Origin: Blakeslea trispora
Taxonomy: Eukaryota > Mucoromycota > Mucoromycetes > Mucorales > Choanephoraceae
DNA length: 64,000 bases
Assembly: GCA_025331445.1 (NCBI GenBank)
Contig: JAIWNE010000032.1
Location: 124,001 to 188,000, forward strand
Direction of reading: 5' to 3'
Positions within the stretch are counted from its first letter, which is position 1, and each line of letters begins with the position of its first letter. The translations under genes and the position numbers were made by a program. The notes beneath the pieces are model-generated. The model saw nothing but the letters and a program-made list of their open reading frames with translations, did not search any database and was not told where the DNA came from. Of this stretch, positions 5,523 through 28,565 are shown one piece after another.

Positions 5523-5802
5523 GGATAGGCACATTTGGATAGGCACATTTGGATAGGCACATTTGGATAGGCACATTTGGATAGGCACATTTGGATAGGC
5601 ACATTTGGATAGGCACATTTGGATAGGCACATTTGGATAGGCACATTTGGATAGGCACATTTGGATAGGCACATTTGGATAGGCACATTTGGATAGGCAC
5701 ATTTGGATAGGCACATTTGGATAGGCACATTTGGATAGGCACATTTGGATAGGCACATTTGGATAGGCACATTTGGATAGGCACATTTGGATAGGCACAG
5801 TT
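5523..5802. repeat. 14-bp minisatellite, 20 tandem copies
   Basis: The unit GGATAGGCACATTT repeats head to tail 20 times (280 bp). The last copy has one substitution (CAGTT for CATTT). The base runs immediately before and after the array both read ACAGTT. Because 14 is not a multiple of three and the unit has no minus-strand stop in any phase, all three minus frames stay open across the array and read the same cysteine/proline-rich 14-residue cycle. These are by-products, not evidence of a gene. Near-perfect copy identity suggests recent expansion or homogenisation. Confidence 0.97.
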
Positions 5803-6065
5803 GGAAGCAGAGATGGAAGCAGAAATAGAGACAGAAGCAGGGACCCAGCAAGGCATCAGTAAAGGCATCAGCAAAGGCAAGTCTTAAGTTGTTTAGTAAT
5901 AGAGTCACCTCCAACAACAAAGCAAGACAAGAAAAGTAAGAACGCAGAGGGTAAGCCTTCCTTGACTTATTTTTTTGAATAAGCCAAAGAAGACTCAGTT
6001 CTGTTCGCACTATCCCAAATCCTTAGCAACTCCATACCAGTCAACTAACGAGGAATAGTACAAGT
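5803..6065. other. imperfect repeat and spacer next to the minisatellite
   Basis: It starts with degenerate GGAAGCAGARATRGA-type repeats (5803-5840) and a doubled AAAGGCATCAGYA motif (around 5850-5880). No gene is supported. Confidence 0.5.
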
Positions 6066-6284
6066 ATGTCTGTACCCGCTTCCTCTGCCCAGATCCCTAC
6101 AGGACACACTCATAGTGTTAACAGATCAGGCGGCGTAATTGCCCTCAGTCATTCCGACTTCAGTCCCAATACTAGAAAACGAGAGGTCGTTCGCGAAAAT
6201 GGACTAGATTCCGGTCGTAAGCCACTTTATATAGGATCAGGAAAGGCAGCATCAGTCTTTGTCCTTACCCCCCATCAAGCTTGA
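6066..6284 (+). CDS. orphan 72-codon reading frame in a GC-richer island
   Basis: The frame starts ATG-TCT-GTA and has balanced, protein-like composition (Ser, Gly, Arg, His, Val), unlike the Phe/Lys-rich junk frames around it. The DNA is visibly richer in G and C than its flanks. I recognise no family. It sits between the 14-bp array (5523-5802) and an 8-bp array (6371-6433). It may be an exon or relic of a mobile element, or a small lineage-specific gene. No introns, signal peptide or membrane segment are visible. Confidence 0.25.
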   Translation: MSVPASSAQIPTGHTHSVNRSGGVIALSHSDFSPNTRKREVVRENGLDSGRKPLYIGSGKAASVFVLTPHQA

Positions 6285-6370
6285 AGTAGAGGCAGAAGCA
6301 CCAAGAGAAGAAGAGAGAGGCAAGAGAGGCAGAGAGAACGCGTAAAAAGGATTTGTAGAGCTTGAAAGCA

Positions 6371-6433
6371 TTTGTAGTTTTGTAGTTTTGTAGTTTTGTA
6401 GTTTTGTAGTTTTGTAGTTTTGTAGTTTTGTAG
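6371..6433. repeat. 8-bp tandem repeat (TTTTGTAG)
   Basis: Eight head-to-tail copies of TTTTGTAG, the first lacking one T, with no mismatches. On the minus strand this reads as a Tyr-Lys-Thr-Thr-Lys-Leu-Gln-Asn cycle, which I treat as incidental. Confidence 0.95.
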
Positions 6434-8300
6434 ATGGAAAGGCACGCGTATTTTCTTCTTTTTTGTAGATAACGTTTTTTGCTCTTGGTGCAATAATAGA
6501 CTTGCGTAGATTGCAGATTTTTAGGCTATAAACGATAAAGCAAGTTAGATAACAGCATTATCAAAGAAGAGTATTTTGTTACTTGCCTTTGAGGTTGTCT
6601 GGGTGACAAAGTTTCAAGATGTAGTTGAGATGGCTTTGATAAAGAGAGAGAGAAAAAAAAAGAGGGAGAAAATGATCATTACGTTCTGTTTACTTCAAAT
6701 ACACACTGAAAAAAAAAACCAGTCATCCAATCAGAGCCTGGCATCTCTCCATTCACTTATCTATCAGTAAAAAGAAAAAAACATGTGATAACCAATAGAA
6801 TCAGTAAATTAGAGGGCGTTGAGAAGTAAACAAACTAAGAGATGCCATGCTATTTCATGCCGACATTCACTCTCCTGTATTTTTGATTGTGACAGCCAAA
6901 CTCCTCTTTAATTTGCAGTAATACTTGTCCAACAGGTCAGATAAGCCTAAAAGATGGCACTCGAGAAAAGAAGAAGAAGAGTGAAGAATGAGCAAGTACT
7001 GCTGTCATCTAAACAAAAGAATAATAAGCAGTTTCATTTGTACTCATCTGGGTTGAAAAGGCTATACATATATATAACTCCACAGAAGCTATCAAGCATA
7101 GCTTCCTAGCACTGGAAACTGAGATGAAGCCACCCATTCCTTTAATGGTAGGCAGTAGAGACCATTAAATGCAAAGTACCAGTAATCGGTACTATGCAAG
7201 TTATATCCTGTAACTTCATTAGCTTGGGCTTGCATGTATGTTTTCTTTTGCTCTTTTTCTGAGGAATATGTGAAAACAAAACAAAACAAAATAAAATAAA
7301 AAGGAAATCAATGATCGAGACAATCAAATTCTGTTCTTTGTGTGAGGATTGAGTCTTAAGATAGTCTTTGACTCTAATGCCATGTATAACTTGCTTAAAG
7401 CATGCTTGACAGCCAAATGAAGACAATGAGATAGAATTCTGATATTTTTGGAGCCAAACAAAATACACTTTAAAATCAGAAACACAAGCATATTGGAAAG
7501 TTCATATTAATAACAATAATAACCAGAAATAAATACTACATAACAGCCTCTCTAATAGAGATATACAGCATTTCTATAAACCGTTGCTTATAGTGCAGAA
7601 TGTCAATATAAAGAGAACACTAGTATACAACAATAGTATCTCAACCCTGTAAATCAAACACAGCTAATCCTCACAATCAGACAAGTAAATCCTTGGTACT
7701 TCCGATTCCAAAAGTACAGCATATGTCTTTCTCTCAAGAGAAAAAACCATCTTGACAGCTATCTCAGAGCCCAAGCATAAAAAAAAGAACAGAAAAACAA
7801 AGCTACACAGTTCTTGGATCCAGATCTTTACTAAAGACAAATAATGCATCTATAGTTGAATAGGATGGCTATTTCTCTTTCTTTAACCTGATGAGGTTTC
7901 AGTCAAAAGCACCTTTTTTTCTTGCTCCGCGTAAACCGGTGTTGGTTATGTGTCACTGCAATTGTATAGGAGATTTATATACGAAGTCGTTGTCTGCATA
8001 ATAAAGAAATTCCTTTCATATTGTTCATTCCTTTCGTTCTCTATTGTATCAGCTACACAAAGAAAGAAGGAGAAAAAAGAAGATGACGCATCTCGATTAC
8101 TGCGTTGTGTCGTCACCATAGAAAGGGGTCAATGAAATGCCATAAATGTTTACTGTACAAAAAGCCTCATTTTATTACCATGTATTTTGATTTTCTTTTT
8201 TATTGCTCCTTTTTTTTACACTTATACAGTCACACCGAATAAAGCTACATACGGCTAAAAATTTATAGGAATTTTTGATTATTTGTCTTTATAAAATTAC
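6434..8300. other. gene-free AT-rich spacer
   Basis: Only short low-complexity frames are present, with A and T runs and short AAAAC/AAAAT repeats (around 7275-7303). I see no supported gene or RNA. Confidence 0.55.
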
Positions 8301-8392
8301 GTATGTCTCCTAGAAAACAACAAAAATCAAACAGTGGAGCCGCTTCCGAGAATGCCAAGCGTGACGAGAATCTAAAAGATTCTGTTTTTTAG
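8301..8392 (+). other. possible intron or decayed 5' part of the chimeric transposase gene
   Basis: The segment begins GTATGT, a strong fungal 5' splice site, and ends CTGTTTTTTAG, a strong 3' splice site. Alternatively an ATG at 8303, in the same frame as the transposase, begins a short Lys/Ser-rich reading, but stops at 8390 (TAG) and 8402 (TGA) separate it from the main frame. The bases just after 8392 read A-F-I-D-S-E-K-Q-T-I in another frame, which resembles the start of a Tc1-type HTH. A small indel has therefore probably damaged the N-terminus. Confidence 0.35.
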
Positions 8393-8425
8393 GGCATTCA
8401 TTGACTCAGAAAAGCAAACCATTCT

Positions 8426-9925
8426 ATGCAAAAGATTGCAAACGTTGTTGAACTCAGCAAGGCAACTGTGCAGACTGTATTGAACCGTGTTGACCAAACT
8501 GGTACACCTATTGGCCGAACTAGTCCTGGGAGACCCAAAAAGTTGAGTGAAAGGGATACAAGAGGTCTTGAATTGATTGCGAGCCGCAACCCGTTTACCT
8601 CATATACTCAAATTAATATGGAGGCAAAGGCAAGTGGAATTGACATTCACCGAGATACTTTGATCAAGTATTTGAAGAACTTGGGCTCTGGTTCCTACTT
8701 TTCGGCACAAAAGCCAAGGCTGTCAGAGGAAAACAGATTGAAAAGGCTTCGTTGGGTTAAAGAGAGGGTCAACTGGACAAAGAATGACTGGAGACGTGTA
8801 GTTTGGTCGGATGAATCACGATTCACTGTTGAAGGCTACCGTGGAGGAGCCAGAGTGATCCGCAAGGCCGGAGAGAGATACCGTGCTGATCATGTTGCTC
8901 CTACAGCAAAGCGGGGAAGGGGCTGGTTTTGGGCAGGTGGTTTTGGTTCTTTGGTCTTTGTTGATGGCTCTGTAGATCAGGATGACTACATCAACATTTT
9001 GGCCAAAAAATTTATGCAATGGTTCATTGATTTGAACCAGAAGGAGGACACAAACTTCATATTGCAAGAAGACGGCGTCACCTGCCACACAAGTAAGTAT
9101 GCGACGTGGTGGAAAGACTCTCATCAGATCAACCGCTTCGACTTCTGGCCTCCACAAAGCCTTGATCTCAATCCAATCGAGCATCTGTGGAGCTCTCTCG
9201 ACAAGCTCATCGAAAAGAAGAGGTCTAATATTAGCAATGTTGATCAGCTAAAGGCTGCTTTAGAAGAAAGTTGGGGCCAGATCAGCCCTGAGCTTGTAGA
9301 ACGCTTAGTTGGCAGTATGCACAATCACTGCAAGTCTATAGTCGACACAGCATCCTCGCTGTTAAAAGTTAACCATCGAAGACAGTTGAGAAGAGCAGAA
9401 AAGGCAAAGAAATTAGTCGAATTCAGAAGCGAAGAGGTTGAAGACCAGATAAGAAAAGCAATTCAATTAAGCTACATCGAGAGTATGCTACAACAGTTCA
9501 GCTGCTGGGGAGAAACCCCTCACAAATTAGAAGAAGTCATGAGTTTGCTGAACGAAATGTATCATTCGAGCTGCAACAAGATCGTGAAATATATACAAGA
9601 TGCTGATTACTTTTTGCATCAGTTGTTCATGCCAGCTAAAGAAGATCCAAAGAAGCAAGAAGATATCATGAAGTATGTCATCGAGCTATGCATCATGTCG
9701 AAGCGTGTGCTGCCTTCTGAAAAAGACATCTTGATTAAGAAGATGGCAAGCTTCGACTTGCTTGACATTTTGGTCGTCGGCCTCAATAATGGCGCCCCAC
9801 ATATCTCGAAGAATGCTGCTGTCATGATCGATAAGTTTACAAAAATAAAAAGAAGCAGAAGCAGCAGAAAAGGAAGCAGCAAAGAAGGAAGCAGAAGAAA
9901 GAGAAGCAGAAGCAAAAGAAGTTGA
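8426..9925 (+). CDS. Tc1/mariner transposase fused in frame to a PP4R3 (SMEK/PSY2) fragment
   Basis: Seen: 499 codons. Residues 1-75 carry most of a paired-type helix-turn-helix (KIANVVELSKATVQTVL) and a G-R-P-K-K linker. Residues ~120-300 are the DDE catalytic domain: first Asp in VVWSDESRF, second Asp in ILQEDGVTCHTS (usual form Q-D-N-A-x-x-H), and Glu in LDLNPIEHLWSSL. All three acids are present. Tc1 proteins normally end soon after this, here near residue 310 (LVGSMHNHCKSIV). This frame instead runs on for about 150 residues (genomic ~9410-9840) that align with the ARM-like core of PP4 regulatory subunit 3: K-I-V-K-Y-I-Q-D-A-D-Y-F-L-H-Q-L-F, E-L-C-I-M-S-K-R-V-L-P-S-E-K-D and F-D-L-L-D-I-L-V-V-G-L. 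The last ~20 residues (Arg/Ser-rich) are read out of frame with the natural tail. Inference: either a captured host gene piece or an insertion into a PP4R3 copy. Whether it is expressed is unknown. Confidence 0.75.
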   Translation: MQKIANVVELSKATVQTVLNRVDQTGTPIGRTSPGRPKKLSERDTRGLELIASRNPFTSYTQINMEAKASGIDIHRDTLIKYLKNLGSGSYFSAQKPRLSEENRLKRLRWVKERVNWTKNDWRRVVWSDESRFTVEGYRGGARVIRKAGERYRADHVAPTAKRGRGWFWAGGFGSLVFVDGSVDQDDYINILAKKFMQWFIDLNQKEDTNFILQEDGVTCHTSKYATWWKDSHQINRFDFWPPQSLDLNPIEHLWSSLDKLIEKKRSNISNVDQLKAALEESWGQISPELVERLVGSMHNHCKSIVDTASSLLKVNHRRQLRRAEKAKKLVEFRSEEVEDQIRKAIQLSYIESMLQQFSCWGETPHKLEEVMSLLNEMYHSSCNKIVKYIQDADYFLHQLFMPAKEDPKKQEDIMKYVIELCIMSKRVLPSEKDILIKKMASFDLLDILVVGLNNGAPHISKNAAVMIDKFTKIKRSRSSRKGSSKEGSRRKRSRSKRS

Positions 9926-10157
9926 AGAAGTAGAAGTTGCACAAGTAGAAATAGCAGGATCAAGACGAAAGAGGTCAAGTTCAGAAGCTGAAGTTGAAGA
10001 CAGTGATAGACCTCACAAAGACATTAGGCTTGACGAAGATAAGTCAGAAATGTCGAGCCATCCAACGGCCTCGTCTTCGCAAAAGAGGTCCAGCCGTGAT
10101 GCTGAACTCGAAGACGATGACAGGCCCCAGAAAGGTGCCAGGCTTGGTCGAGAATAA
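9410..10157 (+). pseudogene. PP4 regulatory subunit 3 (SMEK/PSY2)-derived segment with acidic/NLS-like tail
   Basis: From 9410 to ~9840 it is in frame with the upstream transposase. After an A-rich slip site (~9841-9850) the natural tail continues in the next frame to TAA at 10155-10157. That tail begins with an Ala/Glu/Lys coiled-coil stretch (K-E-A-E-A-A-E-K), then has two copies of a ~24-residue module, K-R-S-S-x-x-A-E-(V/L)-E-D-x-D-R-P-x-K, and ends R-L-G-R-E. Basic/acidic tails of this kind follow the ARM core in PP4R3 proteins, which target PP4 to its substrates. The EVH1-like N-terminal domain of PP4R3 is missing. The frameshift would stop an intact tail being made from this copy unless the slip site is an unrecognised splice or a sequencing error. 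Confidence 0.65.
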
Positions 10158-13100
10158 AAAAAAAGTGTAAAAAAAAAAGAACGAATAGGTTAGGTTGGTG
10201 TTTGTTCCCGAAGGAGTCTGGAGCTTGTATGTTAGTTTGTCTAATGGCTGTTTGTACGGTGTTGGTGCTTTTCTGAATCTAAGTAATTATTGTACTATTG
10301 ATCTGTCTTTTGCATAGCCTTATGTTGCTTATGGTCATTGCAGTAGTAGCTGTCATTTCTGTTTTCTTTTGCTGTTCCCTCTTTAGCTTACCTAAATAAT
10401 CGATATCCATTAATGTGCAAGTAGCTATCCTAAAGATGGCGTATGGCTCAGTAATGGAATAGCTAATTACTATAGGCTTAAGTATGAAAGACATGTATGA
10501 CTTCACAAATAGATACATATGAATATATATATACGGCAGTAGATTAATTGACATAGACACTTTGCTACTTACTCCCTCATCAAAGTCAGCTAAGGTTGAT
10601 CTTGATATGGATTTAAATATAAAACTAGCAAAGTCAATTTTCGAGACTTGATCTGCTTCTTGTTTACAAAATATTCATTATTTGCATCTATCTCTATTCT
10701 ATACCCTCTTCACATTCTTATCTTTTACCCCAATTCAAGCAAACGGTGAAAGTGTAGTTTCTCTCTATGAATTTACCAGGACAAGCATGTTGTCCAGAGC
10801 CCTTTACAAGTTCTCTTTTCTGCTAATGAGTGTATCTACTTGGTATATAATTGGAGCAGAATTTACTCTTAGCATACCTTGTAGCTGAGGAGTCAGTTGT
10901 AAAGGCGTCGTTACATCTGCTGTTTCCCTCAACAAATTAATGAATCGAAGGGAAGAAAAAGAAAAAGAAGCATATTTCGTTATTTTATTGATTTTCATTT
11001 TTGAATCTTTAAAAGAAACAAAAGAGCATTTCGATTTGTTGACAAGATCTGTTTCATTGAGGGTAAATGCTGTCGCTTTTTTCTTTGCCAAATCAAACAT
11101 ACCAGGCGAAACCATTGCAAATACAATATTTCTCATTATTTTGTAACTGGCAAAGTATGAAATAGTTTATTCTTTGCGTAGATCAGTCTGTATCAATTGA
11201 TACCTTGATTCTTTGCAGCTGATACATAAAGACCGAATCTCCATTCTTAGTATGTAAAAAGAAGTGTTTGGCATGTATCACTGAGAATGATTACTGTTCG
11301 TGATTCTGTAGTAGAAAAAAAAGAGAGAGAGAGAGAGAGAGAATAAAGTGATATATTGAGATTATGTCAGCAAAAACATGCAAGTTAATCAACATTTATC
11401 TGTAAATATGTTTGTCTCAATATTTGGTCTGTTTCTACAGCTCATTTTGTTGGTTGTGCTTATGCTTTAGACAATTGTAGAGAAAGAGTCGCTTTATTAT
11501 TACAGAAGAAATGGGCAAAACTAAGGCTTAGTTTGATTCCAGTACGCTTGTTGGAGAATATCATTGGCAAAATGTCTCTGAGTATGCCTAAATTATCATT
11601 GCTTGTTGAATCTTTAGTACCACCGATAAAACAGAGCGCAATGTGTACATGACAATAAATTCAACACATTTTCTAGCTTTTTTTTAATTTATCGCTAACC
11701 ACTTGTTATATAATAGTTATTGACCCTTGTAAGGTATTTTAAAGCAAAGAATGACAGAGATAACATACAGAAAGCAACAAGGGGATCTGAACAAACAGAA
11801 TGTCAACTGTATCTGCTTCTTTATCGAGTAAAACGCAAATTAAAACTCAGTTAGATAGGTTCATGCATTCACATTCGTGACTTTAGTTGGAAACTATCAG
11901 CTATTCTCTTTCTTGCAACGAAAACTTGAAAATTTCGGCCAATCAGATTCTTGTAGTAATGAAGAAAGGTGGGCTAAACAATCTATGAGCCAATAAGCCC
12001 GAATTAAGGTTAAAAGCCGATCGATCTATAAGCATAATGCAAAGCTTAATTAAAATTCATGCCATGATTGTTTGGCTTGGGAGTATTTATACTTTCAAGT
12101 CATGTCTCTTGCTTTTTATATATAAAAAAAAAAGAATAACTTTTGTCTGAAAATAGAAAAAGACCGGGCGCCGAGATTTTAACCTTTTTTTTTGTTTTGT
12201 TTGTAAGGATTGCTCCAAATAAGGCTTGAAGAGCACCTTTGACTGAAACAAATTTAAGAGACGCGCTTCTATTGGATGACGCGACCTCGAATAGAAGCTT
12301 TTTCTCTTTCTTTTTTTATTTATATTGATTTGTGATGATATTTTATATACAAAAAGGAAAATAAGTAAGGCAGCAATCAATAGAATGAAAAAAAAAAAAA
12401 ATTTTTTTTTCTGTGCCTGATTTTCTTTCCAATTGTTGTCAAATTGTTCCTGACATAATAAACTCATGGCTTTGACGTCCTTGAAAAGCTTTTTTTTTTT
12501 TAAAAAAAAAAGGAGAAGATAATTTTTTCGCGCCTAATTATGACACATTGGCAATCTCCCATTTTTTTTTGTTTAGCAAGCTATTTTCTTCAATGCCTGC
12601 ATTAGACTTGTTGTAAAAGCTAGATGAACTGCTTTGTTTGTACAGGACATTTTAAAGAACTGATTGTCGCGTTTGTCAGTTATCTGATTGGTGATTATGA
12701 TTTTAATGTCTTTTTTTTCAGGTCACACAAGATGATATATTTGTCAACAGTGTTAGGTAAGACAAAATATAGCCTCTCTCTTTTTTATATATACAAAAAA
12801 AAAATCAACACAAAAGCATTATGACAAAGACAGACTTATTAGCATGTGGATAAAAAGTCCATCATTACCTTATTGATTCAAGCTTATATTGTCCTTTCTT
12901 TCGGATGTGCTAGTCTCTCTCTCTCTTTAAACACGGACACATTTGCATTGGACAGATAACCAAATTAAGAAATATACCATTCGTCTATGGTGAAGTTAAG
13001 AAACTACACTATTTCCAGAAATAGATTCCGAGACAAAGTATATACCATTTCTTAATGATTCTCATCATAGTTTGATCTACAAAACATGCATTTGACTTTT

Positions 13101-27436: not shown

Positions 27437-28565
27437 ATGGCTCCTACAAAGAAAGTTGGTATTTTAGGTGCAACCGGTACTGTCGGTCAACGTTTCATTT
27501 TGTTGCTAAGTGAGCATCCCATTTTCACTATCCATGCTGTTGGTGCCTCTGCTCGTTCTGCCGGCAAGGCCTATAAGGATGCTGTGCGTTGGAAACAATC
27601 TCATCCTATTCCTGACCATGTAGCTCAGTTGATTGTCAAGCCTTGCGATGCTGAACTTTTTAAGGATTGTGATGTTGTCTTTTCAGGTCTTGATGCTGAT
27701 GTTGCTGGTGATATCGGTAAAATGAATAGAAAAGTATTTCCTTTTTATTATGATTAACATATGCCCTTTAGAAATGGCCATGTTGAAACAAGATCTTGCC
27801 GTCTTTTCAAACGCAAAGAACTATCGTCGTGACCCTACTGTACCATTGATTGTGCCTACTGTCAATGCGGATCATTTCGATTTGATCCCTCATCAGCGTC
27901 AACTCAACCAACTTCGAAAGGGTTTCTTGATCACCAATGCCAACTGTTCAACCACCGGTCTGGTCGTTCCCTTAAAGGCCCTTCAGGATGCTTTTGGTCC
28001 AATGTCACATATCATTGTTCATACACAACAGGCCATCAGTGGTGCTGGTTATCCTGGTGTACCTAGCTTGGATATTTTAGATAATGTTGTGCCTCATATT
28101 GGAGGTGAAGAAGAAAAGATTGAATGGGAAGTAGGCAAGATCATGGGTAGCTTGGCCAAGGACAAACAATCCTTTGAACTCTTGCCCAACACAGTTGTCT
28201 CTGCCACTTGTACTCGTGTGCCTGTCTTGGATGGTCATTTGGAGAGTGTGTCTGTCAAGTTTGCGAATGGAAGCCCCTCTGTGGAAGAAGTCTATCGGGT
28301 ACTTGAACAGTATCGTTCCGAGGCTGAGGCATTGGGTTGTCATTCCGCTCCTCAAAAGCCTATTGTTGTCAGCCATGATCCTGACAGACCTCAACCTCGT
28401 CTTGATCGTGAAAACCTAAAGGGTCAAGCTGTGACTGTAGGTCGTGTTCGTCCTTGTCCTGTCTTGGATATCAAGTTTGTCTTGTTGATTCATAATACTG
28501 TCCTTGGTGCTGCTGGTTCTTCAGTACTCAATGCTGAAATTGCTGTTGCCAAAGGCTTGCTTTAA
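27437..28565 (+). CDS. HOM2: aspartate-semialdehyde dehydrogenase
   Basis: Two exons, 27437-27716 and 27772-28565, with a 55-bp intron, 357 aa, the normal size. The N-terminal NADP-binding loop is [12 protein letters not shown]. The catalytic Cys lies in [10 protein letters not shown], and [11 protein letters not shown] is the substrate loop. The end [11 protein letters not shown] is typical of the fungal/archaeal-type ASADH. It reduces aspartyl-4-phosphate to aspartate semialdehyde in the pathway to Thr, Met and Ile. The protein lacks a targeting peptide, so it is cytosolic. Confidence 0.96.

Follow-up and report, generated by a model that had tools for sequence, protein, structure and literature searches.

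In Caenorhabditis, the F-box A2 genes captured a Tc1/mariner helix-turn-helix by insertion followed by exonisation through splicing, and PMC12062965 describes these genes as expressed and their helix-turn-helix as being under purifying selection. With regard to the other partner considered here, PMC7776573 reports that target recognition by R3 in Drosophila is carried out by its EVH1 domain, with the Smk-1 domain also implicated. We analysed a window of 64,000 nucleotides from the fungus Blakeslea trispora (C212:124001-188000 of a 37.2-Mb assembly of 285 contigs), in which an earlier note had described a Tc1 transposase continuing in frame into a segment of PP4R3 (SMEK/PSY2). A literature search found no paper pairing "transposase" with "PP4R3", and the Tc1-PP4R3 pairing appears to be unreported in the literature searched; we read it as a random event. 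The chimera is very probably an incidental read-through, produced when a deletion joined a decayed Tc1 element to a duplicated short PP4R3-like gene. In the rest of the window, 10 further long open frames between 15319 and 56477 were scanned (12 frames of 190 codons or more were listed, including the fusion), and seven gave Pfam matches, namely PP2C phosphatase, sulfate permease, RGS, semialdehyde dehydrogenase, ATP_bind_1, TBC RabGAP and Raptor; these are ordinary host genes.

The open frame of 499 codons was borne out, counted from the ATG at 8426, as was the order of a Tc1 transposase followed by a PP4R3 segment, with Pfam matches above the curated cut-offs. HTH_Tnp_Tc3_2 was matched at residues 57 to 123 of the fusion (E 8.8e-12) and DDE_3 at residues 131 to 283 (E 5.9e-11), and the transposase half also matched the Sleeping Beauty catalytic domain 5cr4, its nearest solved structure (E 1.6e-28). 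The second half, for which the note had proposed a check against PP4R3/SMEK, matched PP4R3 (PF04802, SMK-1) at residues 314 to 472 (E 1.6e-16), with a score of 60.5 bits against a cut-off of 27, over model positions 86 to 240 of 497 only. Both homologies are far beyond chance. The three DDE-triad acids were indeed found, as the invariant columns D136, D223 and E259, which we take to be the catalytic DDE triad. The stretch described in the note runs to 10157, but the fusion frame stops at 9925; positions 9841 to 10157 are a PP4R3-like tail in another frame, and the stretch from 9849 to 10157 is open in a frame other than that of the fusion.

When the whole frame was compared with its own genome, at least 87 matches were obtained (85 of 480 candidates scored), comprising 80 to the Tc1 part only (some being pieces of one copy), six to the PP4R3 part only and the window itself as the sole match spanning both halves. 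The Tc1 copies without a PP4R3 part that the note had suggested looking for are plentiful, and the joined unit itself did not recur among these matches. At the protein level, none of the 120 matches listed out of 147 covered more than 63% of the fusion.

The locus carries a short PP4R3-like gene that has been duplicated, and represents a third copy beside those on contigs C24 (locus L021) and C112 (locus L026); the coordinates of its features are collected in Table 1. By blastn, the left block matched L021 at 89.0% over its whole length and L026 at 92.5% over 6767 to 8227, and a shorter query (7001 to 8227) gave 89.0% and 92.2%, respectively. The left and right blocks match consecutive parts of these same two loci, with the Tc1 sequence between them. 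CTTATA is the last sequence in common with the paralogs; the element then begins with CAGTCACACC, as it does in Tc1 copy L003. The corresponding TA in the C24 copy is 40 bp 5' of the ATG at L021:2221, the exact insertion TA being uncertain by one repeat unit in a leader that is built of short repeats. Of the note's proposals, insertion of an element into a PP4R3 copy has base-level support, provided that a later deletion is included. Just 5' of the PP4R3-like duplication, window positions 5755 to 6967 matched contig C201 at 95% (L022, 301 to 1535) and contig C2 at 92% (L023, 4635 to 5825), and short repeats stepping by 14 bases were observed beside this common block at approximately 5573 to 5721; the block and the adjoining repeats are a mosaic of duplicated segments.

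Table 1. Features of the chimeric locus, with positions numbered from the first letter of the window
Feature	Position	Strand	Basis or detail
Duplicated block, left (upstream and leader of the PP4R3-like gene copy)	6169..8227	+	blastn
TA dinucleotide, left Tc1 insertion point	8225..8226	+	Alignment with L021, L026 and L003
Tc1-like element remnant	8227..9334	+	Left end CAGTCACACC present; right end, ~200 bp, missing
Transposase gene start region, own ATG 8303	8303..8404	+	Closed by TAG 8390-8392 and TGA 8402-8404
Chimeric open frame	8405..9925	+	506 codons stop to stop; first ATG 8426
18-base deletion site, DDE core	8918..8923	+	Gap at ~8919 vs L002, L003 and L004; protein alignment
Deletion junction, Tc1 coding sequence / last 7 bases of PP4R3 intron	9334..9335	+	Adjacent blastn matches, alignment
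Duplicated block, right	9335..10925	+	91.7% to L021, 87.9% to L026 (blastn)
TCTATAG, intron remnant with 3' splice site	9335..9341	+	L021 sequence, protein P0005
PP4R3-like exon (ARM/SMK-1 start)	9342..9840	+	PF04802 positions 86-240 of 497
PP4R3-like charged tail	9841..10157	+	Stops: 9925 (fusion frame), 10157 (tail frame)

Tc1 copy L003 matched the whole of 8224 to 9334 at 89.9% identity. In the relatives L008, L009 and L018 the full design is TA-CAGTCACA...TGTGACTG-TA, with lengths of 1,330, 1,327 and 1,201 bp, respectively. The remnant has the left end and TA at 8225 to 8235; the right-end motif TGTGACTG was not found near it, the nearest in the window being at 28430. It has neither two terminal inverted repeats with TA on both sides nor a complete DDE core, and is a remnant by descent rather than a whole element. 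The Tc1 ends were located by alignment and motif, an inverted-repeat search of 6500 to 12500 having recovered none of them (the 25 longest of its 43 pairs were mostly A/T-rich) and the same search of L003 and L005 likewise having returned no Tc1 ends.

The start region of the transposase gene is closed by two nonsense codons, leaving a frame of 29 codons from the element's own ATG upstream of the fusion ATG. In our reading of the alignment, TGG tryptophan-type codons stand at both positions in L003, L005 and L008; this comparison used L003, L004, L005 and L008, the left part of L002 being rearranged and uninformative there. Because of the TAG at 8390 and the TGA at 8402, the fusion frame starts inside the N-terminal part of the transposase. 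The DDE domain, intact-looking in the note, has lost six codons (18 bases) from the interval between its first and second Asp, bases that L002, L003 and L004 all retain. Among the best 30 of the 120 matches listed, the 27 other aligned transposases did not have this gap. The absence of a stop at the transposase end was confirmed, the element having been cut 12 codons before its own stop when compared with L003, and no stop interrupts the 506 codons of the chimera, against five, four and two stops in the three nearest Tc1 copies. An intact transposase is ruled out by the two nonsense codons, the 18-base deletion in the DDE core and the missing right end. As a separate observation, the nearest Tc1 copy, L002 on contig C233 (1055 to 2000 and 2639 to 2821), is itself rearranged, its left 183 bp being inverted and lying approximately 640 bp from the rest of the element.

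At the right junction, an exon starting with TCGACACAG comes directly after TCTATAG. The 3' splice site was placed right after TATAG because protein P0005 reads ILEF-DTASS there, with DTASS beginning at residue 232 of 496, and the residues SI at the joint are the seven intron bases read through. Subtraction puts the lost host sequence at approximately 1.18 kb relative to L021 or 1.23 kb relative to L026, and the lost right portion of the element at approximately 200 bp relative to L008. A blunt right junction and numerous Tc1 copies (the 80 Tc1-only matches above) might be expected if a mis-join in the assembly had set a Tc1 copy beside a PP4R3 paralog. We consider such an artefact very unlikely, however, since both flanks differ from the C24 and C112 copies as one distinct diverged copy, the Tc1 piece carries changes and a deletion of its own, and on the left the element begins with a proper Tc1 end next to a TA.

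The 165 codons of the PP4R3 exon align without gaps to L021 and L026. From approximately 9840 the tail is shifted out of the fusion frame, with an A-run and repeat units that vary among the three copies. The GAA/GCA-rich tail repeat (L021 3865 to 4011, L026 4536 to 4750, window 9841 to 9925) varies in length and frame and is longest on C112. Two Blakeslea trispora proteins, P0005 (C24) and P0006 (C112), are 88 and 90% identical to the PP4R3 half, their matches covering about a third of the fusion. Both contain EVH1_PP4R3 at residues 10 to 100 and PP4R3 at residues 152 to 390; an N-terminal EVH1-like domain was not among the Pfam matches of the fusion, and the start of the PP4R3 domain was also absent. 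P0121, the 150-aa model deposited for this locus, begins inside the PP4R3 exon and does not include the transposase. It skips positions 9703 to approximately 9848, and the first part of the tail is likewise skipped in P0006; these skips probably represent predicted introns.

The PP4R3 profile matched seven places in the genome, and the PP4R3 exon was located by protein motif in all seven loci. One of these, on C114 (L025), covers positions 56 to 495 of PF04802, and the six others, including window positions 9342 to 10157, cover only approximately 86 to 247. The search for a full-length PP4R3 in the same genome has therefore yielded a candidate, in that the C114 gene looks like full-length PP4R3 if its exons are read jointly. 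The shortened PP4R3-like family has members on C24, C112, C201, C2 and C124 (L021 to L024 and L026) and in the window; P0005 and P0006 have retained EVH1 but not the later ARM part, and each terminates in a charged tail. That a single fungus has such a small family of shortened genes may merit a study of its own.

Selection was assessed separately for the two halves. For the transposase half, changes were counted at sites within 8405 to 9334 at which L002 and L003 are alike but differ from the window, giving eight synonymous, 22 nonsynonymous and no nonsense changes. Six of these 30 changes are common to L004, and without them the counts were seven synonymous to 17 nonsynonymous. The proportion of 8/30 synonymous fits neutrality at four transition weights (p 0.51, 0.84, 1.0 and 0.84), and purifying selection on the transposase-derived part was thus not found. 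For the PP4R3 half, sites in the 165 exon codons at which the window differs from a base common to L021 and L026 gave 12 synonymous and 16 nonsynonymous private changes, on a branch that includes time before the insertion. Against neutrality these gave p values of 0.007, 0.026, 0.090 and 0.146 at transition weights of 1, 2, 4 and 6, respectively, and the higher weights were trusted more because 22 of the 28 changes are transitions. The dN/dS of the PP4R3 half was 0.34 and 0.28 versus the paralogs, and 0.24 between the paralogs; the difference between the two halves was not significant (Fisher p 0.27). Private changes in the exon relative to the flanks numbered 28/495 versus 79/2149 in the window copy (ratio 1.54, p 0.057), 4/495 versus 47/2149 on C112 (ratio 0.37, p 0.045) and 8/495 versus 25/2149 on C24 (ratio 1.39, p 0.38), so that the rate of change in the exon of the window copy is not below that of its noncoding flanks. 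There is no clear present constraint on the window copy, by tests that are weak and on a branch that includes pre-insertion time. Of the purifying selection across the junction that the note had proposed to look for, the transposase half, being neutral, gave no sign, whereas in the PP4R3 half the outcome (p 0.007 to 0.146) depends on the transition weight and covers pre-fusion time.

The in-frame union of the two halves is not remarkable by chance. Two coding frames are in register one time in three, and the probability that no stop arises was 0.23 to 0.25 among the 30 transposase-half changes and 0.21 to 0.38 among the 28 PP4R3-half changes, depending on the transition weight. At 0.23 to 0.25, the open frame in the transposase half needs no selection to explain it.

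We also considered whether the fusion could be a domesticated regulator, in which the old PP4R3-like promoter would drive the chimera, the helix-turn-helix would bind DNA and the ARM segment would recruit or titrate PP4. The long frame from an ATG, the three acidic residues and HTH_Tnp_Tc3_2 have all been kept, as has the upstream region of the old gene, and the dN/dS of the PP4R3 half against its paralogs is low enough to be counted in favour. We nevertheless find this reading scarcely credible: the transposase half is at a neutral ratio with six codons gone from its DDE core, the start region and the EVH1 part are lost, the tail is frameshifted, the 29-codon frame opened by the ATG of the element lies upstream of the fusion, and the fusion occupies a single place among the at least 87 genome matches, with a deposited model that omits the transposase. 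The suggestion of a domesticated regulator, set against the neutral transposase half, the damaged DDE core and N terminus and an exon evolving no more slowly than its flanks, was not supported. Equally hard to credit is a putative new species-specific, DNA-tethered PP4 decoy or recruiter, expressed from the kept PP4R3-like promoter and made up of a Tc1 helix-turn-helix, a broken DDE fold and the first part of the ARM core, that would be too young to have left a signal of selection. Capture of a host PP4R3 piece that the element then carries, as the note's "captured host piece" would have it, could account for transposase and PP4R3 being contiguous in one frame but is exceedingly improbable, and within the element was rejected on account of collinearity on both sides and the missing right end: the PP4R3 part sits in its native place, collinear with the paralogs through 1.6 kb of downstream sequence, there is no right terminal repeat nearby, and no second joined unit was seen among the at least 87 matches (85 of 480 candidates scored).

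Incidental read-through, then, would have arisen in four steps. A block carrying the PP4R3-like gene lies, as collinearity shows, in at least three places, and a Tc1-like element entered a TA of the leader, approximately 40 bp 5' of the start codon as placed on C24. A deletion would next have removed the roughly 200-bp end of the element together with 1.18 to 1.23 kb of the gene, including the start codon, the EVH1 part and the upstream introns, with its endpoint seven bases before a 3' splice site; the resulting state is visible in the alignments, whose order and cause given here are the probable ones. The coding frames of both halves fell in register by chance. Decay has left its marks, namely the two nonsense codons, the 18-base deletion, the neutral-ratio changes and the out-of-frame PP4R3 tail, and the chimeric frame would be what decay has not closed so far.

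This explanation is supported by the collinear flanks, by a left TA followed by CAGTCACACC as in L003 and by a right junction seven bases from an annotated splice site, as well as by the marks of decay, the missing right end, the neutral ratio in the transposase half, the exon-to-flank counts, the single match spanning both halves and the deposited model that omits the transposase. Counted against it are the 506-codon open frame, the dN/dS of 0.28 to 0.34 in the PP4R3 half, the departure from neutrality at low transition weights, the lack of a significant difference between the halves and the retention of the 5' side. Most likely, no functional protein is made from the chimeric frame. Transcription is conceivable because the old gene has kept its 5' side, and at most this kept side may drive a putative chimeric transcript. 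The locus illustrates, base by base, that a single transposon insertion and a single deletion can create a long in-frame chimera by accident, and it warns that a frame left open through two domains does not in itself constitute evidence for a new gene.

Compared with known systems, the transposase half resembles Tc1-like elements in having HTH_Tnp_Tc3_2 and DDE_3, three acidic residues, and a TA and CAGT left end in the remnant. Unlike whole elements of this kind, it lacks a right end, has a DDE core shortened by 18 bases and has a start region closed by two stops. The other half resembles the short PP4R3 (SMEK/PSY2) paralogs P0005 and P0006 in its ARM-start exon and charged tail sequence and differs from them in lacking the EVH1 domain and the start of the PP4R3 domain and in having its tail out of frame. 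As in SETMAR, KRABINER and Caenorhabditis F-box A2, in the account given in PMC12062965, transposase sequence has become joined to host coding sequence after a nearby insertion. For F-box A2, that paper describes exonisation, expression and purifying selection on the helix-turn-helix, whereas the joint in Blakeslea trispora is a genomic deletion with a neutral transposase half.
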